Shown piece by piece: positions 5,023 to 27,248 of a stretch of 32,736 nucleotides of DNA. The stretch lies in IMG/VR virus record IMGVR_UViG_3300025617_000003, positions 1 through 32,736 of that record. The stretch is one strand, 5' to 3'. Positions within the stretch are counted from its first letter, which is position 1, and each line of letters opens with the position of its first letter. The translations under genes and the position numbers were made by a program. The stretch comes from a virus. A model generated the notes under the pieces. It was not told the origin of the DNA and did not search any database. It saw only the letters and a program-made list of their open reading frames with translations.

Positions 5023-5192
5023 CGGTAGCCTCCACCCTTAGCCTTATATTCTTTGGCAAGCATCTGGGCCTTTCGAGCAGACCACTGTCCGGGATTGCCG
5101 CCCTTGCCACCAGCCTTAATGCGCTTGAACAATGTCTTCCGCATACCCGGCTTGGTATAATTCCCAGCCTCATTAACCCTAGACTCAGCCAT
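5019..5192 (-). CDS. Small basic protein (57 aa), terminase cluster
   Basis: ATG at 5192 gives MAESRVNEAGNYTKPGMRK and ends AKEYKAKGGGYR. It has 14 Lys/Arg and 3 Glu among 57 residues. The GKGGNPGQWSARKAQMLAKE segment is, to my recollection, a recurrent motif in marine phage proteins of unknown function. The longer open frame to 5315 is rejected because it lies over the coding frame of the 105-aa gene. It overlaps neighbours by eight bases (upstream) and four bases (downstream), indicating coupled translation. Confidence 0.75.
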   Translation of the reverse strand: MAESRVNEAGNYTKPGMRKTLFKRIKAGGKGGNPGQWSARKAQMLAKEYKAKGGGYR

Positions 5193-5502
5193 TCTTCTTG
5201 GTCCTCTCGTAACGAGCAAGTAAGCTCTTACCCTTCTTTCTTGCGCTAGCTTTGGAAGACGCGCCCCATGCTTGAAGGCTAAGAAGAAGGCGGGTGGGTC
5301 TACCCTTGGAGTCACGCTCTGGGCCCTTCATATTGCCCATACGAGAAAGAAACGATCCCTTCCTGCGCATCTCAGTAGGACCAGAAGGGGCGCCCTTAAC
5401 AGGAGCCTTCAACGTACCCTTCTTATAAGACGCACGGCCCTTCGCATTTAACCCACCCTTCGGGTTCTTACCTTCTTTCCTAGTCCAAGCCTCGGTCGCC
5501 AT
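5185..5502 (-). CDS. Small basic protein, DUF6321-like (105 aa)
   Basis: The chosen start is ATG at 5502 (MATEAWTRKEGKNPKGGLNA), which begins at a conserved-looking block; the extra 13 residues of the longer frame (MLLLIFFCHRVFE) look like untranslated leader. The segments WTRKEGKNPKGGLNAKGR, SFLSRMGNMKGPERD and RPTRLLLSLQAWGAS resemble the DUF6321-type proteins of phages and some bacteria (recalled, not searched). Very basic. First gene after terS, from which it is separated by a 144-bp gap, so it may begin its own transcript. Confidence 0.78.
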   Translation of the reverse strand: MATEAWTRKEGKNPKGGLNAKGRASYKKGTLKAPVKGAPSGPTEMRRKGSFLSRMGNMKGPERDSKGRPTRLLLSLQAWGASSKASARKKGKSLLARYERTKKNG

Positions 5503-5646
5503 CTCAAACACCCTGTGACAAAAAAATATTAGCAGCAGCATAGAGCCTTTTTTGCATATTGCTAGAGTGGGGGACCACTAGCTAGTAATACTGTCGGAGT
5601 TTTTAACCCCCTGTGCCATATACCGGGCTATCTACAACCAATTTAC
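5503..5646. other. 144-bp gap between terS and the basic-protein cluster
   Basis: No open frame with a ribosome site seen. Contains a perfect five-pair hairpin, AGTGG/CCACT at 5566-5579, with loop GGGA read on the plus strand. It lies just after the terS stop in the direction of transcription and has no T run, so it is not a clear terminator. A leaky terminator, RNA processing site or packaging-related site are all possible. Confidence 0.4.
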
Positions 5647-7084: not shown

Positions 7085-7933
7085 ATGCTAGACTTTCAAT
7101 CCAACAGCTACAACTTTCCAGTGGAAGAGCAGCCAGTCTTTACTCAAGACGGTGAGCTTATCCCAGATCACAAGTGCATCGTGCGCACAGACACAGGCAA
7201 GACACTCGGCTTGCATGGGTCACGCTATCGAATGATACCGCACGATGATGTAGTCAACTCAATCCTTGACGGAGTTAAAGCAAGCAAGCTAACCAGTGAC
7301 TATGAGGTCAACGTAGATGTAATCGAAGATGGCCGTAAGCTAAGAGGTGAGATCATCTTTCCTGATCTGGTGCAGCAGCCAGCAGTAGGTGACTACGTTC
7401 AGTTCCGTGTCAGCTTCTTCAATAGTTATGACGGATCATGGTCCTTTTCTCAGCAAGCCAATGGTCTCAGACTGTGGTGCTTGAATGGATGCACAACACC
7501 AGATGCTATTGCAAAGTCACGTTTCAAGCACACAGCGTCAGTCAACGTAGACGGGAGCGCTGCCAAGATCATAGGTGGCGCCGAACATTTCATGGGACGC
7601 AGCAAAGAGTGGCAGTCATGGATGCAGACACGATTGAACAACGATCAAGTCGAGCAGTTCTTTCGGTCAACCATATGCAAGGTAGTAACTAAGCAGCAGC
7701 AAGTGATCAAGACAAACGAAAAGCAACTTGAGAATCTTATCTCAGGTTGGGATCGTGAGAAGATGGATCTCGGTCACAACAAGTGGGCATTGTATAACTG
7801 CCTGACCCACTGGGCTACGCATACCAATGACCTCAAGTCACCACAGATTGCACGTTACAATCGCGAGATAGCGATTAGCAATGCAATGAATCACAAACTG
7901 TTTACCTCAATGGTGGGCGAGAACGTAATCTAA
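7085..7933 (+). CDS. DUF932-type phage/plasmid protein (282 aa)
   Basis: Matches the pattern of DUF932 proteins found in phages and plasmids: LGLHGSRYRMIPHDDVVNSI near residues 40-60, a beta-rich middle (YVQFRVSFFNSYDGSWS at about 108-124), NGLRLWCLNGC at about 127-137, and a helical C-terminal half (WALYNCLTHWATH). The biochemical role of the family is not established. It has its own TATAAT box and dyad and an AAGGAGAACA ribosome site, so it is probably well expressed. In a genome without replication enzymes, a role in DNA metabolism is possible but unproven. Confidence 0.8.
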   Translation: MLDFQSNSYNFPVEEQPVFTQDGELIPDHKCIVRTDTGKTLGLHGSRYRMIPHDDVVNSILDGVKASKLTSDYEVNVDVIEDGRKLRGEIIFPDLVQQPAVGDYVQFRVSFFNSYDGSWSFSQQANGLRLWCLNGCTTPDAIAKSRFKHTASVNVDGSAAKIIGGAEHFMGRSKEWQSWMQTRLNNDQVEQFFRSTICKVVTKQQQVIKTNEKQLENLISGWDREKMDLGHNKWALYNCLTHWATHTNDLKSPQIARYNREIAISNAMNHKLFTSMVGENVI

Positions 7934-8351: not shown

Positions 8352-8636
8352 ATGAAATCGTATCTTGAAACAATAACTGAACAAGCGGAGACAGCTAACG
8401 TGTCTCTGCTTAGAGCTTTTAGTCGCGCTAATATCCCACGTTCTACCTACTACAGAACCATAAAGAAAGATACGGAGTTGAGGTTTTATACTGCGCTGAG
8501 GATAAGTCATGCCATCGAGCAAGTTAGACAAATACAAGACGCCGTTAAAAATACCAAAGAACTACGAGCTAATGGTGGAAATGTTGAGCGCCGCTCGATC
8601 AAAGCAAAAGTTAAGTCAAGAAAAATTAGCTTATAA
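8352..8636 (+). CDS. Small helix-turn-helix protein (94 aa)
   Basis: Residues about 14-60 (ANVSLLRAFSRANIPRSTYY, then ELRFYTALRISHAIEQ) have the layout of a phage repressor-type HTH with recognition helix near PRSTYYRTI. The last 40 or so residues (KNTKELRANGGNVERRSIKAKVKSRK) are basic and lie over the start of the next HTH gene in another frame. No clear ribosome site precedes ATG 8352. It is a candidate binder of the palindromes at 6115 and 10150. Confidence 0.65.
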   Translation: MKSYLETITEQAETANVSLLRAFSRANIPRSTYYRTIKKDTELRFYTALRISHAIEQVRQIQDAVKNTKELRANGGNVERRSIKAKVKSRKISL

Positions 8637-8757
8637 AATAGGATGCACAGAATCCTTAATACACAAGTGGGAAACACACAAACGAATACCCTCTGGCTTT
8701 ATGCTCAACTGTTGGTTGGATGCTTTAGGCTATGACATCACGATCACTAAAAGGTAA
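8509..8757 (+). CDS. XRE/Cro-type HTH regulator (82 aa)
   Basis: Residues about 30-75 match the HTH_3 family: SKQKLSQEKLAYKIGCTESL followed by IHKWETHKRIPS. Such proteins bind operators as dimers. The start at 8509 has GAGGAT upstream; ATG at 8572 (MVEMLSAARSK) is an alternative that keeps the HTH and reduces the overlap with the 94-aa gene from 128 to 65 bases. Without an integrase it is more likely a transcription timing regulator than a lysogeny repressor. Confidence 0.8.
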   Translation: MPSSKLDKYKTPLKIPKNYELMVEMLSAARSKQKLSQEKLAYKIGCTESLIHKWETHKRIPSGFMLNCWLDALGYDITITKR

Positions 8758-9007
8758 AGCAGCTATATGCGTAGCTTGCCAAGTGGCAACACATTTCTTT
8801 GTAGCAGTACTTAAAACAAACAGTGGCCGCTCAATGGAGAAACACTGGTTCGTTTGCATGAGCTGTTATGTGAATGACAAATGGCAAGAGCCAACATCAA
8901 AGACAAAACCAAACAAAAAACGATTAAAGAAACCTAGCGTCAAGCTACAGGCTGGCGCGTGGGAATCTAGCATCGAGTCAAACGCAAAGCCACCAACCGA
9001 CTGGTAA
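8732..9007 (+). CDS. Zinc-ribbon-like protein (91 aa)
   Basis: Two CxxC pairs (C13/C16 in CVACQ and C42/C45 in CMSCY) about 26 residues apart suggest a single zinc ribbon, followed by a Lys-rich tail (KTKPNKKRLKKPSVK). A small nucleic-acid-binding protein is likely; the target is unknown. The start lies inside the end of the HTH gene (26-base overlap). The next gene follows after a short gap with an AAGGAG site. Confidence 0.7.
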   Translation: MTSRSLKGKAAICVACQVATHFFVAVLKTNSGRSMEKHWFVCMSCYVNDKWQEPTSKTKPNKKRLKKPSVKLQAGAWESSIESNAKPPTDW

Positions 9008-9017
9008 GGAGAATGAC

Positions 9018-9488
9018 ATGCTCATCTATGGAATCGACCCCGGATTTACAGGAGCAGTCAGTATATATGAAACAGAAACAGACAGCTTAGTTATCTACGA
9101 TATTCCAGTAGCTCAATCACCAAAGGGTAAGACATTAATTAACTTACCTGAGTTGCTTTCAATCCTATCCAACCAAAGAAACAAGCCGGCCTTAGCTGTG
9201 ATCGAGCGTGTAAATGCTATGCCTAATCAAGGAGTTAGCAGTACATTCAGATTCGGACAGGGCTTTGGTCAGCTAGAGATGGGGATCGTTGCGTCAAAGC
9301 TACCTATAAAATATGTGACGCCACGTCAGTGGAAGAAATACTTTGACCTTTCAAGAGACAAGGGTGAAAGTAGAAGACTAGCGAAGCTCTGCTTCCCTAA
9401 CCATGCACACTATTTCAAACGAGTTAAAGATGACGGACGAGCAGAAGCCGCACTCATTGGATTGTATGCAAAAGAAAACTTAGTCTAA
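9018..9488 (+). CDS. RuvC-like Holliday junction resolvase
   Basis: 156 aa with the RNase H-fold layout of RuvC-like phage nucleases: GIDPGFTGA with catalytic D7, VIERVNAMPNQGVSSTFRFG with E63, and KDDGRAEAALIGLYA with D138/D139 and E143. In this family these acids bind metal and cut four-way junctions. In the phage it would resolve branched DNA produced by recombination-dependent replication before packaging. It precedes the nuclease, annealing protein and SSB on the same strand, a coherent recombination set. Confidence 0.9.
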   Translation: MLIYGIDPGFTGAVSIYETETDSLVIYDIPVAQSPKGKTLINLPELLSILSNQRNKPALAVIERVNAMPNQGVSSTFRFGQGFGQLEMGIVASKLPIKYVTPRQWKKYFDLSRDKGESRRLAKLCFPNHAHYFKRVKDDGRAEAALIGLYAKENLV

Positions 9489-10225: not shown

Positions 10226-10996
10226 ATGGAACGTAAGGGTTTCATAGGTGGTTCCGACTGCGTAAAAATAATGCAGGGGAACTGGCTGGAGTTATGGCAG
10301 GTCAAGACAGGCAGAGTTGAGCCTGAAGATTTGTCTCGGAACATCGCTGTGCAGATGGGGATAGAAACTGAAAAGTTTAATTTGCTTTGGTTTTCAGAAG
10401 AATATAGCTGCACTCTTACTGGGTTCCAGAAATCATTTGAAGAAACGATTGGATCAGTCCCGGTCAAGGGTACAGTAGATGCTATAGTCGATGACTCTAT
10501 CGTAGAAGCCAAGCACACCAACGCTTATAATACTTTGGATAAAGTTATCGAGTATTACATGCCGCAGCTGCAATTGTATATACATTTAGCCAAGGCTAAC
10601 GGCGCTCACATATCTGTTATCTTTGGCAACAACAAATGGGAGTCGGCTCATGTCAGGCGGAACGAAGAGTATTTCAATTCTATGTGGGCAGTGGTGTCAG
10701 ATTTCTGGGGTTACGTGCTTCGCGATGAAGAGCCAGTTGGTAATGACCAACCGATACAACTTAGCATTGACAAGGTGTCGGTGGACAACATGGTCAAGCG
10801 CAACGCCACAAGCGACAACCAATTTGTGGACGCCGCTATTACATACGTAGAAAATGAGGCGGCAGCTAAGACATTCGAGTCAGCCAAGAAACAAATCAAA
10901 GACATGGTTGGCGACAATGAGCGTGAGGTTTACTGCGATCAACTCACAGCTAAACGTGACAAACGCGGAGCCATCCGCATAACAAGGAGAAAATAA
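10226..10996 (+). CDS. YqaJ-like viral recombinase exonuclease
   Basis: 256 aa. The N-terminus has GGSDCVKIMQG, then GIETEKFN (about 45-52), then the PD-(D/E)XK core KGTVDAIVDDSIVEAKHTNA with D85, E94 and K96, and MPQLQLYIHLAKA (about 112-124), the order seen in YqaJ/lambda-exo-like nucleases. It should chew one strand from duplex ends to give 3' single strands for the annealing protein encoded just downstream. Ribosome site AAAGGAG; the next gene starts directly at its stop codon. Confidence 0.85.
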   Translation: MERKGFIGGSDCVKIMQGNWLELWQVKTGRVEPEDLSRNIAVQMGIETEKFNLLWFSEEYSCTLTGFQKSFEETIGSVPVKGTVDAIVDDSIVEAKHTNAYNTLDKVIEYYMPQLQLYIHLAKANGAHISVIFGNNKWESAHVRRNEEYFNSMWAVVSDFWGYVLRDEEPVGNDQPIQLSIDKVSVDNMVKRNATSDNQFVDAAITYVENEAAAKTFESAKKQIKDMVGDNEREVYCDQLTAKRDKRGAIRITRRK

Positions 10997-15153: not shown

Positions 15154-18100
15154 TTAGACTACCCTTATCTTTAAATTCTGTGTAGCATTAGACGTAAGCC
15201 TAATAGTCGTGCTATCTGGTGCATCGAAGTTATAGTCAGTGCCTAGAACTGCACCACTTTGCAAAGCCTCAGCATCATAGTTAATCGTTACACCGTCAGA
15301 TGATGGGACATTTACAGATGCAGTGCCTTGGTACAAACCAATCATCAAGTCCAAGCTGTTGCCTAGAGTGAAGTGATTAGGGTCAGTGACAGCACTTAAC
15401 TGCGTGTTGTCCATGCGGTTGTTTTCTACGCTTAACGCTTCTTGCAGTGCTTCAATCTCTGCGTTGGTAGTTGCACTCTCCCATGTAGCAGATGTTGAGT
15501 AAGCATTAGTGCCTATGTTGTATTGATGCACATTGTCTGAGTTTTCGCCTACAACGTAAAGTCTAGAGCCGTCTGAATTAAAGAACATACCTGTTGGTGC
15601 TGTATCTTTAGAACTTACATCTAAGGTTTCGCCAGAGCCGTTATAAGATGCAGAACTTAAATCCCATGCAGTACTTAGATCATATTCATAAACTTTATCT
15701 CCCGTTCCTTCACCTAAAACATACATCTTTGTACCATTAGATTTAAAGAATACGTCTTTAGGTGCACTCTCTACCGAACCTATGGCAAGGTTTTGTAAGT
15801 AAGACGCTGAAGAAACATCCCACGGTGTGCTTAAATTAAACTCAGAAATGTCAGAGCTTATGACCTCGCAAATATACATTTTAGATCCGTCTGGCTTGAA
15901 GAAGAATCCAGAGTTTGCTCCAGTAAAGTTACTAAAGGCTTGAGAGTAACTGGCTGTGGAAATATCCCAAGCTGAAGCTAAATTGTATTCGAAAACTGAA
16001 CTATTATTTGTTCCAAGAACATACATTTTAGTTCCATCAGGTTTAAAGAAGAGGCCTTCGGGGCTGCCATCCTGACTTCCAACAGCAAAGTTTTGATTGA
16101 AGGTCTTGCTGGATACATCCCAAGCAGTGCTTAGATTATACTCGTTAACATCATTGCCAGCATTACCAAGAACATACATCTTTGTTCCATCTGGTTTAAA
16201 GAAAACATCTTCTGGCTCTGTGTCCTCAGAGCTAACGCTTTCGCTACGAACAAAAGTTGCCGCCGAAACATCCCAAGCATTTGGGTTTCCAGTGTTTGAG
16301 TTATACTCCCAAGTCCCTGCATTATCACGAACGATAGGACGAACACCGTCACCCTCTTTAATCACCGACCATGTAGTACGACCATCAGTAGACACAGCAT
16401 AGTAAACTTCACCATTACCAGCGTCTTGGTCACCAGCCATAGTATTCAAGTCTAGCCATGTAGTTGTGTCGATCTGACCGCCTACGTTGGTTAATGAGAC
16501 TTCGTATGTACCAGAAGGAGAAAACAACTCACCTGTAGACCACTCACGAACATAAGCAGATCCACCTTGGTCACCAATAATAGCCAATGTCCCGTCTGGC
16601 TTAAAGTCAATATCTTCTGGCTCAGTACCAGCACCAGATGTATCTCGAATGGAAATGAAATTATTGCTGTAAGAGCTTGTCGAAATATCCCAAGCTGTTG
16701 ACATATTATACTCGTACGCCCTGTCTAAGTCAGCAGTGATAAGATAATACGTTAAGCCATCATCTTTAATGTAAATACCCCTTGGGCTAGTTGACACCGC
16801 ACTTATGGAGTATTTGAAAACAGAGGACATTGTAGTAATGTCCCAAGCCGTACTTAAAGAAAGCTCTTGAATATGATCTCCACTACTAGAGCAAACGAAT
16901 AATTTAGTTCCGTCTGGCTTAAAGAAAATCTTTGATGGGCCTTGGGTTTGAGCGGGTATTAATTGAGAAACTGAATCGTAGCTTGCGGTTGAAAGCTCCC
17001 AAGGAGTTGATAATGAGTATTGAAAAACAATTGAAGAGCTTATACCCAACATAAACATCTTAGTACCATCAGGTTTAAAGAATATACTGAAAGGAACTGT
17101 ATCTTGAGCAGATATAGACAAAGTACTGTCAAAGACTCCTGTAGTTATATCATAAGGCGTAGAAAGATTAATCTGCCATACTCTATCTGAGTCGTATGAG
17201 CAGACGTAAAGTTTAGTACCATTGTCACCAAAGCGATTAGCTATTAAAGAATGGGCAATAATTGGGTTAGTCACATTAGAATTCTCAAGATTAAGGTATT
17301 TACCGGTATAAGTCCAGTTGTCAGGGCTTACAAAGCCGTTAACGTAATTACTCAACTCAAGCCCATCTGTGACATTTACAACAGTAGCAAACATACCCCA
17401 ATCACCAGACGCAATAGTGCTGCTATCAGTAAAGGCTGTGACTACAGAATACGAACCATTAGTAGCAGTCAGGATAGCCTTGCCGCCGTTGCCTTCGATG
17501 GTTTTGCCTACGTCAGATGAAGAGAATGAGCCTGAGCCTAGAACAAGTACATTAGTTACATCTAATTCATATTGGAAGACCTGATCGAAGTCACAGACAA
17601 ACATCTTGTGACCAGTGTTGCTAAACGCAAGACCCGTGGGGGTAGTTGTTTGACCAGATCCAGATATAGAGAAGTTGTTTACAAAAGACAGCGTTGATGC
17701 GTCCCAAGCTGTGGTCAAATTGTATTCAGTAACTACATCCCCAGTATCTGCTGCAATGTACATTTTAGTACCGTCAGACTTAAAATAAATACCTTTAGCA
17801 TTGTTTGAAATAGAGTGAGTCCCTGCAGTTTGAGACATAGTTGTTACGTCCCAAGGGGTACTTAAATTATATTCATATAGACTACTATCTTCAGCAGTTG
17901 CGAATGCTTTGGTGCCATCTGGCTTAAAGAAAATAGCTTGAGGGTCTCCGAACAAATAAGAAGATTCTCGGAGGTAACTAGCAGTTGAAATATCCCAAGC
18001 GGTGCTAAGATTATATTCATGCACATTGTCTGCTTGGCCTGTCATGTACATTTTAAGACCATCTGCCCTAAAGAACAAACCTCTTGGAAAATTATCTTGA

Positions 18101-18684
18101 GAGGATATAGAAAAAGATTGCACAAAGCTGGAAGACTGAACATCGTAAGCAGTAGACAAGTTGTATTCATAAACGTTGTCAGCACCATTCCCAAGCAGGT
18201 ACATCTTTGTACCATCAGGCTTGAAGAACACTTCCTGCATTGCAGATTCTTGTGCTGAAACGTTTTTATTATTTACATATGATGCAGTTGTGGTGTCCCA
18301 GCCCTGCGAGGAAGGCGTCAGCGTAGTATCATACGCAGTGTCTTGACGTTCATAGTTGCCACCATCAGACGCAACATCCCAAGAGCCTTTGCTCGAGACA
18401 CCAGTCTGCGAAACCTCTTTAATAACACTTACAACAGGCGCAGTAGTAATGGCTTGAGAAAGAGTAATGCTTGCTGTCTCACCAGAAGCAAAAGACTTGG
18501 TGAGAGTAGCAATAGTTGGATCTGTCTGAACTGTCTGGAATGCGAGGTTCCCTGCACCGTCAGTCTTTAAGAACTGACCAGCAGTGCCATCTGCGCTAGG
18601 GTAGCTAAGACCCTTGATTGTACCAATGTTATCTACGTTACGGCTGTCATCAATAACCGTAGTGCCGCCTACTTTAATAGCCAT
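15154..18684 (-). CDS. Tail fibre protein with three groups of five propeller-like repeats
   Basis: 1176 aa. The N-terminus (MAIKVGGTTVIDDSRNVDNI, then GTAGQFLKTDGAGNLAFQ) is a fibre attachment-type start. Repeats of about 48-52 residues then follow, with core FFKPDGTKMYVLG...VYEYNLSTAWDVSTASY. I count fifteen: five at about 129-378, five at about 459-718, five at about 803-1060. The groups are separated by modules (379-455 and 719-802) of ordinary marine phage fibre type. The C-terminus (1065-1176) is another fibre module (EALQEALSVENNRMDNTQL). The repeats suggest beta-propellers or lectin-like blades for receptor or glycan binding. TAGGAG ribosome site nine bases before the ATG. Confidence 0.85.
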   Translation of the reverse strand: MAIKVGGTTVIDDSRNVDNIGTIKGLSYPSADGTAGQFLKTDGAGNLAFQTVQTDPTIATLTKSFASGETASITLSQAITTAPVVSVIKEVSQTGVSSKGSWDVASDGGNYERQDTAYDTTLTPSSQGWDTTTASYVNNKNVSAQESAMQEVFFKPDGTKMYLLGNGADNVYEYNLSTAYDVQSSSFVQSFSISSQDNFPRGLFFRADGLKMYMTGQADNVHEYNLSTAWDISTASYLRESSYLFGDPQAIFFKPDGTKAFATAEDSSLYEYNLSTPWDVTTMSQTAGTHSISNNAKGIYFKSDGTKMYIAADTGDVVTEYNLTTAWDASTLSFVNNFSISGSGQTTTPTGLAFSNTGHKMFVCDFDQVFQYELDVTNVLVLGSGSFSSSDVGKTIEGNGGKAILTATNGSYSVVTAFTDSSTIASGDWGMFATVVNVTDGLELSNYVNGFVSPDNWTYTGKYLNLENSNVTNPIIAHSLIANRFGDNGTKLYVCSYDSDRVWQINLSTPYDITTGVFDSTLSISAQDTVPFSIFFKPDGTKMFMLGISSSIVFQYSLSTPWELSTASYDSVSQLIPAQTQGPSKIFFKPDGTKLFVCSSSGDHIQELSLSTAWDITTMSSVFKYSISAVSTSPRGIYIKDDGLTYYLITADLDRAYEYNMSTAWDISTSSYSNNFISIRDTSGAGTEPEDIDFKPDGTLAIIGDQGGSAYVREWSTGELFSPSGTYEVSLTNVGGQIDTTTWLDLNTMAGDQDAGNGEVYYAVSTDGRTTWSVIKEGDGVRPIVRDNAGTWEYNSNTGNPNAWDVSAATFVRSESVSSEDTEPEDVFFKPDGTKMYVLGNAGNDVNEYNLSTAWDVSSKTFNQNFAVGSQDGSPEGLFFKPDGTKMYVLGTNNSSVFEYNLASAWDISTASYSQAFSNFTGANSGFFFKPDGSKMYICEVISSDISEFNLSTPWDVSSASYLQNLAIGSVESAPKDVFFKSNGTKMYVLGEGTGDKVYEYDLSTAWDLSSASYNGSGETLDVSSKDTAPTGMFFNSDGSRLYVVGENSDNVHQYNIGTNAYSTSATWESATTNAEIEALQEALSVENNRMDNTQLSAVTDPNHFTLGNSLDLMIGLYQGTASVNVPSSDGVTINYDAEALQSGAVLGTDYNFDAPDSTTIRLTSNATQNLKIRVV

Positions 18685-20374: not shown

Positions 20375-23300
20375 TTAGTATCTACCGAATCCAGACGGCC
20401 CATCATCTAGCTCACTTTCAAGCATATTGGTTAATCTATTAACCATGTCATTCCACATCCAAAGGTTAGAGAATGGCAAAGCTCTTATGAACTCCTTGCT
20501 TCCTTCCCCAACATTACCCGTCAGCATATTAGCCATACCGTTGGCATACTCCATGCCAATAGAAGGGCCAGCACCAAGAAGCCCAGTGATAGCGTCACTT
20601 GTACTAGCCTCTTGCGGGTATCTAGGCTGCAACGCACCGCCTGTAATGTTTGGCCCACCTAATGCAAGGCTTGTACTCATTGCTGTGTAAAAAAGATCTG
20701 AGTACAAAGCAGCGACACCTGAGTAATCAAATGCTCTAGCAAACTTATCTTGCGGAGAAAGCTCAACAAAGTCGGGTGTCTTTAGTTCTAGGGAAATATA
20801 ACCAAGACCCATAGCAATTGCTGTACCGAGGAATTGGTTCTTTAATTGGCCATGCCCATAAGCAGCTAATGTTTTGTTTGTTGCTGCAAGTGCGTAGCTG
20901 TAGAATTGAAACGGCATACCAAGCAATCCGTTTTCTATTCTAGCGTATCCTTTGTACTTACTGTCTTCTTTCATCCCGAATTTGCTAGCAACGTGCATAG
21001 GAATGTAAGCTATACCGTCAGTAATGATCGGCTTATCAGCAGGCGTACCCATAAGAATGGTGTTAGCTATGCCAGAGCTAAGAGCATTGCGGAAAGACTT
21101 AACTGTTTCTTCAGCCTCAAGAACTTTAGCAGCCCTTGCTTTCTCAAGAGCTAATTCTATCCCCTGTTCTTTTTCATTTCTAATGTAAGATACTGCCAAG
21201 TCATCAATGCGTTTTTCGTAATCGGCAATATTTTCTCCAACTCTTTGAAATGTAGTTGTGTGGTGCAATTCGTGCATCATAACAAACTTAACAAAGTCAT
21301 CTACAGTTTCAAAAAGATCTGCGTTGTTAACGTAAGTCATTTGATGCTCGTAAGCAGCTTTATTTATTGTACCGTTTTCAAGCGCTTCTTCTAAATCTTT
21401 AGTAAATTTATCTAAGTCTTCTCTGTTTTTAAACTTTTCATAAGAAGCCTTAATATTTTTCTTATTAATATAAACAGTAGCCGGAGAACCAAGCTCAATT
21501 CCGTCGGCTTTCCCCAATATGTTTGGCGTACCCATGCGAGAAAATACATCGTCTACAATATCTTGATCTGTAATAATACGATCAACATTAAACTCTCCCG
21601 AAAAACGATTTAACAATTCAGTTTCAGACATTTTCAACATAGATTTTCTAGATGGCTTATAAGTCTTAGACACCTCATCTCGCAAAGATTGCATATCTAT
21701 TTTGGCCCATGACTCACTGTCAGCCATATACATGCCGGACTTAGACTTCTGCCAAGGCGCATTGGCAATCTTGCCAGCGGTATCGAGATCAATACCATAG
21801 CGAAGCAAATACTCTTGCTCCATCTTAGTAGCTTTACCTTGCGTCAAGCGCACTGAGTAATCAATTATTGTGTGGCTGCGCATCATCCCATCAAAGTCTT
21901 TGAATATACGAGTGATAGGCGCCAAGCCGTTAAGCAAATAGAAAGCGTTCTTGGACTTATCCATAAAATTAGAGCGCAATGGATTGTTACCCATGTCATC
22001 TACTAAACGAAGATGAGAAGAACCCATTAGGATTTCTAAAGCCTCACCAGCAATCCTTGCTTCTTTAGCGCCTAACTTTAATTGGTTGTCATCAAGAATA
22101 CTAAACAAACCCTTCATTGTTTTACCAATGCCGTGTTCCATCATAATCTTTGCTGGCTCTGAAATAGTAGATAACCCAGCCTTACCAAGATAACCAAGTT
22201 GAGCAGCGGTACGAAGAACTTCAGCAGCCTTTTGATTAAGAGCATCTGGCTCACGAAGAACTGTACCAGCGACTCGATCATACATATGGCGTATATCTCT
22301 AGACGCAGCGTTGGCTTTTTCTAACGACATCCCGGATGCAAGCATTTCAGACATCTTGTCATTAAGTATGTCGTCAATCTCCTGTCCATCAAACTTAGCG
22401 GCAAACTCATAGCGTGGAGCTGTACGCGCAGTGTATGCTTTCATAATGGAAATTGGATTGCGATGAATGTAATCAAGGACAAGTTTGTTAGGAATGTCGA
22501 TCCCGCGGTGCTTTAGGTGCTTAGACTTGCCGTACCCAAAGGTTGCGACATCTACATCAGTAACATCTTTAAGGCCAAGAATAGAGTCAACTGCGTCAGA
22601 AGCTCGCTTGGCAATGGCCTCTTCAGAAGTTGAGTAAGTAACTTTCTCCCACTTGCCTGTTGGGCTTATGCCATAACCTTCTGGGTTTTGCCTAAACCAG
22701 TCAGATAAAATCTTTTCAAGGCCAGCACGATCCTTTTTAATACCGTCTTTGTCCCAGTATCGAGGGCGGAATATATCCTCATTTGCAGGACTGATTGGAC
22801 CAGCAGCATCAAGTTCATCAAGAGCTTGTTGGTGCATATTAATAACAGCATTGTTTCGATCAACGACATCTTTCATAACTATGAATTCTGGCGTTCCACG
22901 ATACCGCTCAGCATCAATCATTTCATTCTGCGCTTGGCGTTTTTTAATGTCTTTTATATAAAAGCCTCTGTTACCAATCAGGCCAGTGTCGTTCAGACGA
23001 GTTTCCCACTTGCTGTAAAAATTGTTTAAGGCATCCATAGCCTTAGCCTCAAAATCATCGGCAGGCTTCTGTCCACGAATTGCTTTTGAGTCTACTTCTG
23101 TAAGCCACTGCTCAAAGTCTTTTCGCTTGTACATGTAATCCAGTGGTTGAGTTACACCTTTGCCGTGAGACTCACCCCAAATAGAAACGATCTCGTCATA
23201 AGCTTGAACCCACTCACCATCTCGCAGCTTTGCATTTTGAAATACAGAGTTCTTTATTGCAAATCCTTGCTTGTTTGCATTGAGCAAAATGCCAGCATCA

Positions 23301-24103
23301 TTAGCAATATCAAGCATAGTTAACTTAACAGTATTAGGAACTGCTTCATCTTGGAGTACGCGCTTCATTGGTGTGGTTACAGACTTAAACAGCCATGAGT
23401 CAGTAAACGCGCTACTAGCAATAGAAGGATCTATTTCGACGCCCTCTAAAGGCTCAATTGCTTGACGTAGATTTTCAATCTCAACTTCAACTTCTTTAAT
23501 TTCTTGCACGGCTTTTGCTCTACGAGCCGCCGGTATATTCGTAAGACGAGTTATTGCTGTACCAAATGCAAATGCGGAACCAATGTTAATTGCGGTTTCA
23601 GATGTTGTACCTAAAGGATCGAGTGGCGCTCTAATAGATTCTTGAGCGGATACAATAGCAGCACTTTGAGCGCCAACCTTTAAAGCAGTTTTTGTAAGGC
23701 CAACAAAACGCAAAGGAATTGCAATGTAGGCAACAGGGTCAAATGCTTCAGCAAGGAATGAAGCGCCTAAACCAGAACGAGCATTTGTTTCTCTAGTTTT
23801 AAGACCTCTTCTAAGATTCTTTACTTTAAAATCCATGTGAGCTTGACTGTCTGCGTCAAGAAGCGAAGAGCTATATGGCAGCAAATCTTCTGGAATATTT
23901 TGTCTAGCATTATAATCAGATCTTGGCTGCGCACGACTGCCAAATTCATACGGCTCTCTAAACTGAAAGGTTTCAGAAACAAAATCTAGTAATGGGTTAT
24001 ACTTGTAAGCAAGAGACGCACCAACAGTTTCATAAAAATCAGGAGCAGAAACAGTATCCATTCCTACTTCAATGTCTGGCATAAAAGTTAACCCATTTTC
24101 CAT
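20375..24103 (-). CDS. Internal virion (ejection) protein, gp16-like, with metallopeptidase-like segment
   Basis: 1242 aa. Size, position before the fibre genes and after the gp15-like gene, and the C-terminal block (GTPADKPIITDGIAYIPMHV, then RIENGLLGMPFQFYSYA) fit the gp16-type ejection protein that enters the host with the DNA. No lytic transglycosylase motif is seen at the N-terminus, unlike T7 gp16. Instead residues 940-970 contain VMMHELHHTTTFQRVGEN with HExxH at H944, E945, H948 and possible third ligand E963 or D967. The DNA around it is AT-richer than its flanks, which suggests an inserted domain at about 820-995. Confidence 0.85.
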   Translation of the reverse strand: MENGLTFMPDIEVGMDTVSAPDFYETVGASLAYKYNPLLDFVSETFQFREPYEFGSRAQPRSDYNARQNIPEDLLPYSSSLLDADSQAHMDFKVKNLRRGLKTRETNARSGLGASFLAEAFDPVAYIAIPLRFVGLTKTALKVGAQSAAIVSAQESIRAPLDPLGTTSETAINIGSAFAFGTAITRLTNIPAARRAKAVQEIKEVEVEIENLRQAIEPLEGVEIDPSIASSAFTDSWLFKSVTTPMKRVLQDEAVPNTVKLTMLDIANDAGILLNANKQGFAIKNSVFQNAKLRDGEWVQAYDEIVSIWGESHGKGVTQPLDYMYKRKDFEQWLTEVDSKAIRGQKPADDFEAKAMDALNNFYSKWETRLNDTGLIGNRGFYIKDIKKRQAQNEMIDAERYRGTPEFIVMKDVVDRNNAVINMHQQALDELDAAGPISPANEDIFRPRYWDKDGIKKDRAGLEKILSDWFRQNPEGYGISPTGKWEKVTYSTSEEAIAKRASDAVDSILGLKDVTDVDVATFGYGKSKHLKHRGIDIPNKLVLDYIHRNPISIMKAYTARTAPRYEFAAKFDGQEIDDILNDKMSEMLASGMSLEKANAASRDIRHMYDRVAGTVLREPDALNQKAAEVLRTAAQLGYLGKAGLSTISEPAKIMMEHGIGKTMKGLFSILDDNQLKLGAKEARIAGEALEILMGSSHLRLVDDMGNNPLRSNFMDKSKNAFYLLNGLAPITRIFKDFDGMMRSHTIIDYSVRLTQGKATKMEQEYLLRYGIDLDTAGKIANAPWQKSKSGMYMADSESWAKIDMQSLRDEVSKTYKPSRKSMLKMSETELLNRFSGEFNVDRIITDQDIVDDVFSRMGTPNILGKADGIELGSPATVYINKKNIKASYEKFKNREDLDKFTKDLEEALENGTINKAAYEHQMTYVNNADLFETVDDFVKFVMMHELHHTTTFQRVGENIADYEKRIDDLAVSYIRNEKEQGIELALEKARAAKVLEAEETVKSFRNALSSGIANTILMGTPADKPIITDGIAYIPMHVASKFGMKEDSKYKGYARIENGLLGMPFQFYSYALAATNKTLAAYGHGQLKNQFLGTAIAMGLGYISLELKTPDFVELSPQDKFARAFDYSGVAALYSDLFYTAMSTSLALGGPNITGGALQPRYPQEASTSDAITGLLGAGPSIGMEYANGMANMLTGNVGEGSKEFIRALPFSNLWMWNDMVNRLTNMLESELDDGPSGFGRY

Positions 24104-24104
24104 T

Positions 24105-27100
24105 TTAGTTTGCCCCTAAAAAATTGCGAATAGATTCAAATGAGGTTGGTCGAGGACTTTCGCTATAGTCCTGAAGTGCTTGATCTATTTTTACTTGCGC
24201 CTCTAAGGCCTCTCTTTCAGCAAGCATAACTTCTCGATCATAATTAGCTAAATCTCTTTCTGTAAATGTTGGGAGATATGGCTCATTATTTACTTCTGTA
24301 ATTAACGGACGGAGTTCGTTGTTTTCATCTACATAAAAAGCATAATAAGCTATTCCTCGAGTATTCTCATTAGGAACTAAGTAAACCGTTTTGTCTTTGG
24401 GTTTATCGCCTACAAATGCTGCTGTTATTGCAGAAGTTGCTGAAGTTATTGAGCCCATTATCGGGCCTTGCTCAACAATGTTTTCAATAAGATTGGTTTC
24501 TTTTGGGGCTATATATGTTGCAAGCCTGTAACCCTCTGGCAATTGAGAGGCAATGAGGTCTTTAAAAGCATTTCTTCGATTTTCATCTGGGAATCTTTTC
24601 TCAAGACTATATGAAGTTCTGTTAAGTCCTCCTACTGGAAACCTTGGGTCAATAACAAGTCTTGATTTGCCGTAATGTTGGTCTACCAACTCTTCGAGTC
24701 TGGCATCTATTTCTTCTTTTGTTTTGTTTGTACCAGCTAAGTATTCTGCAACACCATCTAAATCTGCTGCAATCAAATCTCCATAACGATCTGCAACGTA
24801 TTCATTTGGTTTTAACCCTCCAAGCACATTCGAAATAGCAAGTTGGGATTTTTCTTCGTTGCGCATTTCAATGAAACGCATAGCAATTTCAGATGCACTT
24901 TTTCTTACACCGCTTACAGGTTGTCTTTTGTATATTTCAAAAACATCTTTTAATAACGCCTGTGTTTTGGGACTAATTAGTGCGCCCTCACCCGATCCAA
25001 ATCTACTTACAAATAAGCCTTCCGCTGTAACATCGTTTTGCATAGACGCAAATATGTTCAAATACGCATCTGTGTTATCCGTTTCAATGCCAGTAGCAAT
25101 AGCATTTAAGTTATCAATTACTGATTGAGGCATTGTTGAACGCAAGGAATTAAAAAACTGCGCTGACCTTTCACGCGTTGCATAGGTGCTTGGATTAGCA
25201 GGGTCAAATCCAAGATTTTTAAGCCGCTCATCTTGAGCAACTCGATGAGTTTTATCAAAAGGATTGCCGCCGTTTGCAGCAAGTATATTTTGCAAATCTT
25301 GTTTTTTACGTTCCTGTTCTTTAACTGCTTCATTCCTAGCAACTTTTTCTCTTATGCTATTAGCGTGTTGGCTAACGCTGCTCAACTGGCCTGCCGGAAC
25401 AACTGCAAGAATAGAATCCCCAGTAGTAATAACGTGAGGGCTAGCATCGCCCTTCACCTCACCTCCACCCTTAACGTAAAGAGAAAGATCGTTTAATTCT
25501 TTAGCGGACATATTACCCGCAACAATGTTAACTATACCTTTTCCAGCAGAAAGCCGTAAACCATCAGACAAAGAACCAAACTCAGTGCTACTAATGTCTC
25601 CGCCTTCCAAAGCATTTCCTGCTAATTTTTCAGTAGCTTCAAGAGTTTCTAAATCAAAAACACCATTAGCAAAGTATGTTGAGGCATTATCAAAGTTTAT
25701 AAAAAGATTAGCATTTCGCATCTCTCTATCAATTTTGTTTTGTACTTCGTCCTGTGTGCCAGAGATAAGGGTGGAAACATAATTCCTATCCTCAGTAGGA
25801 TCGTAAAGCCTAGTTTGTGTTAGCTCTTGAATTGCTATTTGTTGACGAGGACTTAGCTTCGCAATGTCTGCGGGTGAGTTTGTAGTTAACGCTACCTTTA
25901 GAGCCCCAATATTTCCGTCACTTGCCATACCCAAAATAACTGCATCAAGCCCAACGCGACGAGCATCTTGCTTGCTAGAGTTATATTCATCTAAACCCAA
26001 GCCAAGATTTCTTGCGTTTACAAGCTGTTGCAGACTTTCTTCATATGTTGTTTGAACGGATTGTATTGAGCCAGCAATACTTTCAAGGCTTCCTGAATTC
26101 CAAGCCTCCCTTATCGCAGTAGTATTTGCAAAACGATTTGGAAGAATCGTAGTATCTTTAAAGGTTAAAGAAAAGTTGGCTATGTAGTCTTCTGTATTTT
26201 GTTTTTGTTGCTCTGCTCGAGCGTTTGCAGCATACTCTATACCAGTAACGCTAGCTAAAAACCTTGCCTTACTTGCTTCATACTTTGCCCTTTCCTCAGC
26301 AACTTTTGCAGCCGTTACTGCATTATAGTTGGAAGAAACAACATTCGCTTGAGAAAGCAAAGCTGCTGTGTTGGTGCGGTCAACATAACCTATAAAAGGT
26401 TTGAGCGCTTCTAGCTGTTTTTCGCTAAGGCTTTCGCCACCAGCCTTGCCTTGGCTACCAACGTAAACCCTTATCGAAGCCTGCTGTATTGGGGTCGCAC
26501 CTTTCAATGCTACCTCCAGAGCGCCTGACATGGCCTGTGAGCCAAGTTCCGACCTTACCTGCTGTGCATAACCAGGATCATAAAGCTCTGCGTTCTCGGC
26601 CTCTAGAGAGGCTGTGACGCGCTCTTCAATGTAAGCGACGGATGTAGTGAAGTCCCCGGCGGAAGCTGCGTCATAAATTGTTTCTGCATACTCTATGTTA
26701 GTTGTGCCAACTGCTTGAGCAGCGTTTGCTCTTGCCTTAGTTCTAGCCGCATCTGCTAACCTAATTTTAGTCTGCCCCATAACATAGGAGCCAGAATCAA
26801 AGATTATGTTTTTAAAGCGATCACCAGCACCCGTAGACATTGAGCTAAGATAAGACTCAAACATGCTTTGATACTGAACTGGATCTTCATACTTAGAAGC
26901 AAGCTCCGCAGATTTTAGCCGTATGTCTTTATCAATTGAATCTACAAGGCGGCGCTCGACAACGCGCTCGAATGAGGCGGAAGCAATACTTCCCATGCCT
27001 TTCATCTGAGATAAAACTTCCGGCTTACCAGTGTTAGAATCAAATACTTTTAACTCTTTTGCGGAAATCGACTGAGCCGCTTCCGCACCAAGTTTTTCAG

Positions 27101-27248
27101 CATTTAACGCAGCCTTTTCGTAAAACTCTTTGCCCATTGTATTTGCAAGTTTTGAGACAGCGTTGCCAACTTGAGCTTCGCCAGTGTCAAAGCTACGCAC
27201 ACCGATTGGCTGATTAAAGATTCTTCGTTGCTCTCTTATTATCGGCAT
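24105..27248 (-). CDS. Internal virion (ejection) protein, gp15-like
   Basis: 1047 aa, mostly helical and Ala/Glu/Lys-rich, beginning IREQRRIFNQPIGVRSFDTG, which is typical of podovirus core proteins of the gp15 type. It lies between a gp14-like and a gp16-like gene, the T7 order. By analogy the three form the internal core and then a channel across the cell envelope during DNA ejection. No signal peptide or catalytic motif seen. Ends at 24105, two bases before the gp16-like start. Confidence 0.8.
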   Translation of the reverse strand: MPIIREQRRIFNQPIGVRSFDTGEAQVGNAVSKLANTMGKEFYEKAALNAEKLGAEAAQSISAKELKVFDSNTGKPEVLSQMKGMGSIASASFERVVERRLVDSIDKDIRLKSAELASKYEDPVQYQSMFESYLSSMSTGAGDRFKNIIFDSGSYVMGQTKIRLADAARTKARANAAQAVGTTNIEYAETIYDAASAGDFTTSVAYIEERVTASLEAENAELYDPGYAQQVRSELGSQAMSGALEVALKGATPIQQASIRVYVGSQGKAGGESLSEKQLEALKPFIGYVDRTNTAALLSQANVVSSNYNAVTAAKVAEERAKYEASKARFLASVTGIEYAANARAEQQKQNTEDYIANFSLTFKDTTILPNRFANTTAIREAWNSGSLESIAGSIQSVQTTYEESLQQLVNARNLGLGLDEYNSSKQDARRVGLDAVILGMASDGNIGALKVALTTNSPADIAKLSPRQQIAIQELTQTRLYDPTEDRNYVSTLISGTQDEVQNKIDREMRNANLFINFDNASTYFANGVFDLETLEATEKLAGNALEGGDISSTEFGSLSDGLRLSAGKGIVNIVAGNMSAKELNDLSLYVKGGGEVKGDASPHVITTGDSILAVVPAGQLSSVSQHANSIREKVARNEAVKEQERKKQDLQNILAANGGNPFDKTHRVAQDERLKNLGFDPANPSTYATRERSAQFFNSLRSTMPQSVIDNLNAIATGIETDNTDAYLNIFASMQNDVTAEGLFVSRFGSGEGALISPKTQALLKDVFEIYKRQPVSGVRKSASEIAMRFIEMRNEEKSQLAISNVLGGLKPNEYVADRYGDLIAADLDGVAEYLAGTNKTKEEIDARLEELVDQHYGKSRLVIDPRFPVGGLNRTSYSLEKRFPDENRRNAFKDLIASQLPEGYRLATYIAPKETNLIENIVEQGPIMGSITSATSAITAAFVGDKPKDKTVYLVPNENTRGIAYYAFYVDENNELRPLITEVNNEPYLPTFTERDLANYDREVMLAEREALEAQVKIDQALQDYSESPRPTSFESIRNFLGAN

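Follow-up and report, generated by a model that had tools for sequence, protein, structure and literature searches.

What a predicted zinc-metallopeptidase motif is doing inside an ejection protein of the T7 gp16 type is the question raised by the minus strand of a marine virus, available as a single record of 32,736 bases that was analysed at full length and is referred to here as the window. The general view of T7-type ejection proteins is that they build channels and, at most, also carry a cell-wall hydrolase. The minus-strand gene order is T7-like, running from a scaffold protein (PF05396) through an unassigned ORF, the major head protein, tail tube A and tail tube B to a 169-aa ORF at the gp14 position, a 1047-aa ORF at the gp15 position, the 1242-aa protein that carries the motif (20375..24103, minus strand) and the tail fibre. 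The 1242-aa protein matches the profiles phrog_342 ('internal virion protein with endolysin domain'; E 8e-40 over residues 77-800), of which T7 gp16 is itself a member, and phrog_16310 (E 4e-21). This match along the length of the protein, together with the gp14-gp15-gp16-fibre order, points to a gp16-like ejection protein of the internal virion protein D type.

The N-terminal and central backbone of the protein comprises residues 1-799 (21707..24103, minus strand). Neither here nor elsewhere in the 1242 residues was a match to a lytic transglycosylase family found, and the phrog_342 alignment starts only at profile position 276, past the T7 transglycosylase region, which bears out the first-pass annotation of this DNA, where no transglycosylase had been seen. 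A review of ejection proteins describes the N-terminal (transglycosylase) part of gp16 as phage-specific. The conserved C-terminal backbone, residues 999-1242 (20378..21109, minus strand), shares 97.5% protein identity with the nearest relative, L007, and 58% with L014, which has no module. The gp15-position protein (1047 aa; 24105..27248, minus strand) is, on gene order only, a probable ejectosome partner, lying between the 169-aa ORF and the gp16-like gene; its best family match, to DUF502 (E 0.0021), is below cut-off and none is confident, so that the partner is also poorly recognised.

The motif, HELHH, occupies residues 944-948 (21260..21274, minus strand), exactly where the first-pass annotation had placed it, and is the sole HExxH in the window's open frames of at least 80 aa, with 0.014 expected in the 1242-aa protein from composition. 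Seven residues (H944, E945, H948, Y962, E963, I966 and A970) are invariant over 35 rows aligned at this site, and six (F838, H944, E945, H948, E963 and A970) over 28 diverse rows from all sites at which the domain occurs (22-66% identity to the window). An HExxH with a Glu in the helix that follows it is the arrangement of gluzincins. H944, E945 and H948 would accordingly supply zinc ligands and the catalytic base, and E963 (21215..21217, minus strand), within the pattern YExxI[DN]xxxA of the following helix, is the predicted third ligand of a gluzincin-type zinc site. The acidic candidates proposed earlier, E957, E963 and D967, are all present, but only E963 is invariant, with D or N at position 967 of the aligned copies and no conservation of E957.

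The motif belongs to a block with sharp limits. DNA alignment with near-identical relatives delimits an exchangeable metallopeptidase module at residues 800-998 (199 residues; 21110..21706, minus strand); the inserted domain that had been placed at about 820-995 is thus upheld as an insertion, but with different limits. We examined 85 relatives (L001-L086 minus the window's own copy) from phage and viral-contig collections. The interval between W799 and F1004, hereafter site A, spans 136-373 residues in 66 of them, with an HExxH inside it in 66/66, and only 10-16 residues in the other 19, where the module is cleanly missing at this site. The segment is therefore present or absent as a block, which speaks for the first-pass annotation that had proposed this comparison. 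None of the 19 site-A-module-less proteins contains an HExxH anywhere along its length, and one of them, from phage EXVC031P (L016), carries a degenerate domain copy elsewhere in the protein.

Protein identity between the window and L007 is 93.0% before the module, 37.7% inside it and 97.5% after it, while DNA identity to L007/L001 is 93-94% up to 21707 and 86-89% from 21109 onward, with 21110-21706 unaligned. This is the pattern that a recombinational cassette exchange would be expected to leave. The module has a GC content of 35.0%, compared with 42.4% and 44.4% in its flanks; the AT-richness noted previously is confirmed overall, including the count of 29/120 G+C at 21361-21480, although 20761-20820 contains 25/60 rather than 26. 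The module is under strong purifying selection, with dN/dS of 0.015-0.28 across 19 close pairs.

The segment is predicted to fold as a compact domain. An AlphaFold2 model of the zincin-like core, residues 826-983 (158 aa; 21155..21628, minus strand), built from a 28-row alignment, has a pLDDT of 95.1 and a pTM of 0.89, compared with a pLDDT of 89 for a model of 231 residues. In the core model, a helix, a strand, a second helix and two strands are followed by helices, the HExxH helix (109-123) and the E963 helix (134-154), such that all three strands (15-19, 39-42 and 50-54) precede the HExxH helix. The predicted topology of sheet, HExxH helix and then Glu helix is that of zincins, in line with the fold that the first-pass annotation had proposed to look for. 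With the longer model, a 51-residue helix dominated the fold searches, while the trimmed core gave both the better model and its best PDB match, which is weak but zincin-like (Foldseek probability 0.75, E 0.31, TM 0.42-0.46, 13% identity), to 1oz9, Aquifex aeolicus AQ_1354, a zincin-like protein of the YbeY family. No PDB fold match at E<0.001 was obtained by Foldseek for the module models.

Sequence and profile searches of the module against Pfam, NCBIfam, PHROGs and the PDB likewise gave nothing significant. Below threshold, the Pfam matches over the 28 rows included three metallopeptidase families, DUF4344 (three rows, best E 0.0012), YgjP-like (two rows, E 0.23) and MPTase-PolyVal (one row, E 0.071). 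A sub-threshold match to SprT (E 0.043) was obtained in a separate search. SprT, ImmA/IrrE, YgjP and DUF4344 all failed to exceed the Pfam or NCBIfam cut-off, ImmA/IrrE being absent among the families listed. As far as these searches show, the module family has no name in Pfam, PHROGs or NCBIfam. Taken together, the invariant HExxH...E, the predicted zincin fold and the block behaviour lend good support to the original reading of this segment as a putative zinc metallopeptidase.

Three classes of module occupy site A: an L007-type class with the motif MHEIMH, a window-type class with MHELHH (also in L019, L020, L027 and L034 and, more distantly, in L090-L092, L094 and L097), and an L043/L049-type class with LHEMMH and LHEMFH. 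Profile comparison with hhalign shows the L007 class to be homologous to the other two (97.8%, E 6.6e-13). In more distant gp16-like proteins that have no module at site A, the domain is found with its HExxH kept at two further positions, namely site B, near residues 215-240 of the module-less L015 (in L095, L096 and L099-L106), and site C, at L015 466-482 (in L111, L158-L162 and L164). A backbone tree of 524 columns requires 12 changes of module state in all, with at least three changes involving the module-less state on starred branches and likewise at least three involving the window type, and places the window among L007-type phages; it was built by a quick method and contains some long branches, and its deep placements are therefore unsure. 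Since the module-less state requires at least three changes, particle assembly and ejection seem not to depend on the module. Four module-carrying gp16-like proteins (L043, L048, L051 and L056) have an additional 250-350 or so N-terminal residues; that of L043 starts ...NNAGNIR... and has no Pfam match.

The enzymatic reading had been staked on the segment not being conserved where HExxH is lost. This holds for all 66 site-A modules and for the copies at sites B and C, but not for degenerate copies in EXVC031P, L098 and L112-L117. EXVC031P ('Hodr') is a Pelagibacter phage with a gp16-like protein (WDQ27578.1) whose backbone is distant (~25% identity); its domain copy, at residues 264-376 (E 2e-11 to the L007-type profile), differs from that of the window in lying near site B rather than site A and in having lost the metal site (KExxR), with KKEVYR at the position of MHEIMH in others and the downstream Glu retained. 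The remaining degenerate copies, in L098 and L112-L117, are of the L007 type and lie immediately upstream of an intact window-type copy in the same protein. As the metal site is retained in all other complete copies, we read the degenerate ones as pseudo-enzymes, and they indicate that the domain can persist without it. The same replacements, Lys for the first His and Arg for the second with the Glu retained, are seen in EXVC031P (KEVYR) and in L112-L117 (KEILR), which could reflect shared descent or a non-catalytic role. The region between HExxH and the Glu helix also varies in length: L007-type modules of L005, L012 and L029 have inserts of ~50-75 residues, and at the same place in L070 a much larger stretch of 254 aa (8614-9375) is nested in the protease module between HEIMH and YENAIN. 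By eye, this stretch resembles an ADP-ribosyltransferase (YFVHYT..., MYFTND), an assignment that we rejected as it has no Pfam match.

T7 gp16 is packed in the head and ejected at the start of infection; in the published model, residues 411-1118 (gp16-C) lie between two membrane regions and form a ring in the host cytoplasm (PMC8954989). Aligned via phrog_342, site A corresponds to T7 residue ~1062, site B to ~430-450 and site C to ~750-770 (B and C interpolated), all three within gp16-C 411-1118; the mapping leans on distant homology (L015 to phrog_342, E 5.7e-44) and on a modelled, unresolved position of gp16-C. From this placement we infer that the protease would face the cytoplasm as DNA enters. 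By analogy with T7, the gp16-like protein would be packed in the head and ejected when infection starts, and its central part would form a cytoplasmic ring on which the module is displayed. The protease may then cut a single host protein or a small number of them, a role in defence or regulation being most likely and the substrate a guess, and module swaps would track changes in host or target. The first-pass annotation had suggested envelope proteins, peptidoglycan peptides or host defence proteins as substrates; where the module lies in the protein speaks for a cytoplasmic one. We consider the chances about even that residues 800-998 are a gluzincin-type zinc metallopeptidase carried as interchangeable cargo and delivered to the host cytoplasm to cut host protein(s).

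Other roles for the domain have to be weighed against this one. The protease might act on the virus itself, trimming gp16 or another virion protein in head assembly or ejection. Autoprocessing is the leading published proposal for the zincins of polyvalent proteins, for example P1 DdrB (PMC5512222), and the module does lie within a large protein that has to pass a narrow portal. However, the flanks do not change along with the protease, since modules of 38% identity have been swapped with the flanking protein still 93-97.5% identical; because, in addition, the backbone survives without the module in several lineages and the domain is found at three different positions, host-targeted cargo fits better than self-processing, which we consider rather unlikely. 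Nor does an enzyme that breaches the envelope on entry, cutting peptidoglycan peptides or envelope proteins in place of the T7 gp16 transglycosylase, agree with most of the observations: while no transglycosylase match was found in the gp16-like protein, the three insertion sites, by their T7 positions, belong to the modelled cytoplasmic part of gp16 and not to its periplasmic N terminus, many relatives have neither module nor HExxH, and L043-type proteins combine the module with an N-terminal NNAGNIR segment that by eye is peptidoglycan-hydrolase-like. Such a function seems to us quite improbable.

The fold could also serve a different metal-dependent activity, for instance that of a YbeY-like RNase, or be chiefly structural, a reading with which the best PDB match, to the YbeY-family protein 1oz9, and the persistence of degenerate KExxR copies would both agree. 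The YbeY motif is HExxHxxxxxH, whereas the module has an invariant Glu at the third ligand position, in the gluzincin arrangement; the module and 1oz9 differ in the third metal ligand as well as in biochemical role. Several of the weak Pfam matches are moreover to metallopeptidases, and HExxH is retained by all copies other than those that are degenerate throughout, making this reading unlikely. A selfish insertion without a role for the phage, whether intein, intron or another kind, as might be suspected from a block inserted at several places of one gene, was rejected as extremely improbable, given that all copies are in-frame and under purifying selection, that no splicing-domain match was found and that the scans yielded no homologue outside gp16-like proteins.

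Zincins in injected phage proteins are an established theme, exemplified by polyvalent proteins with zincin-like MPTase domains (PMC5512222). These MPTases (Iyer et al. 2017, PMC5512222) and the module have in common the succession of helix, three strands, HExxH helix and Glu helix, as well as variable inserts between the last two helices. The polyvalent-protein MPTases sit in very large phage-injected proteins, whereas the module sits in a gp16-like protein presumed, from T7, to be injected and, unlike them, is an exchangeable insert in a structural ejection protein. Membership of MPTase-PolyVal (PF18818) was not found, the best match being E 0.071 in 1/28 rows, with none in the window record. 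The C1 domain of the N4 virion RNA polymerase (gp50), an HExxH domain solved in a 2025 preprint (PMC12633501), resembles the module in lying within a giant ejected virion protein, but gp50 is a schitovirus vRNAP and the module host a T7-type gp16-like protein. No kinship with the N4 vRNAP MPTase clade was found by profile, as hhalign comparison of 13 N4-like domains with the module family gave probabilities of 4.8% (A7 v A8) and 1.1% (A3 v A8). Judged by sequence, the module therefore seems to fall outside both MPTase-PolyVal and the N4 clade. T7 gp16 itself differs in having the N-terminal transglycosylase for which the window protein has no match, the latter instead having the zincin-like module at T7 residue ~1062. 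Literature searches, covering open-licence papers, turned up no gp16-like protein described as having a protease domain; gp16 and internal virion proteins go unmentioned in the polyvalent-protein paper (PMC5512222), as do protease and peptidase in the ejection-protein review.

Beyond the close relatives, a tblastn search of 50,697 phage records with the window module returned nothing even at E values as high as 10; the L079-type module likewise gave no match, while the L007-type module found EXVC031P only. Among cultured phages the domain was thus found only in EXVC031P, as a degenerate copy, and no intact copy was present in any cultured phage record searched. Alignments were used as queries because a scan of viral contigs with a single module sequence found no relative. 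A scan of 84,980 prokaryote genomes returned one match, L149 (445 aa), in which HELFH is followed by a VWA-like segment; its layout is different, and we judged it a local resemblance. No module homologue outside gp16-like proteins was found in the scans of phage, viral-contig and prokaryote sequences.

Related viruses swap, lose or relocate the module, suggesting an interchangeable enzyme delivered with the DNA. If so, an enzyme cassette in the cytoplasm-reaching part of the ejection apparatus would mean that a DNA-delivery machine carries effectors that act ahead of phage gene expression. More tentatively, and with less than even confidence, we propose that in marine podoviruses the cytoplasmic ring of the ejection machine is a platform for interchangeable effectors, where a new zincin family, exchanged, relocated, duplicated and inactivated in gp16-like proteins, would cut host (defence) proteins in the opening minutes of infection, before phage genes are expressed. 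The swap between near-identical phages constitutes a natural experiment, in that two particles that are nearly alike but carry different proteases should differ in host range or defence sensitivity. Beside the tail fibre, the window encodes a 1176-aa protein (15154-18684), perhaps a receptor-binding or tail protein, with a Lactonase beta-propeller match (PF10282; 45.8 bits, cut-off 21.7) over residues 150-364. Its other genes include those for a DUF932 protein (7085-7933), a YqaJ-like recombinase (10226-10996) and a DUF6321 protein (5185-5541).
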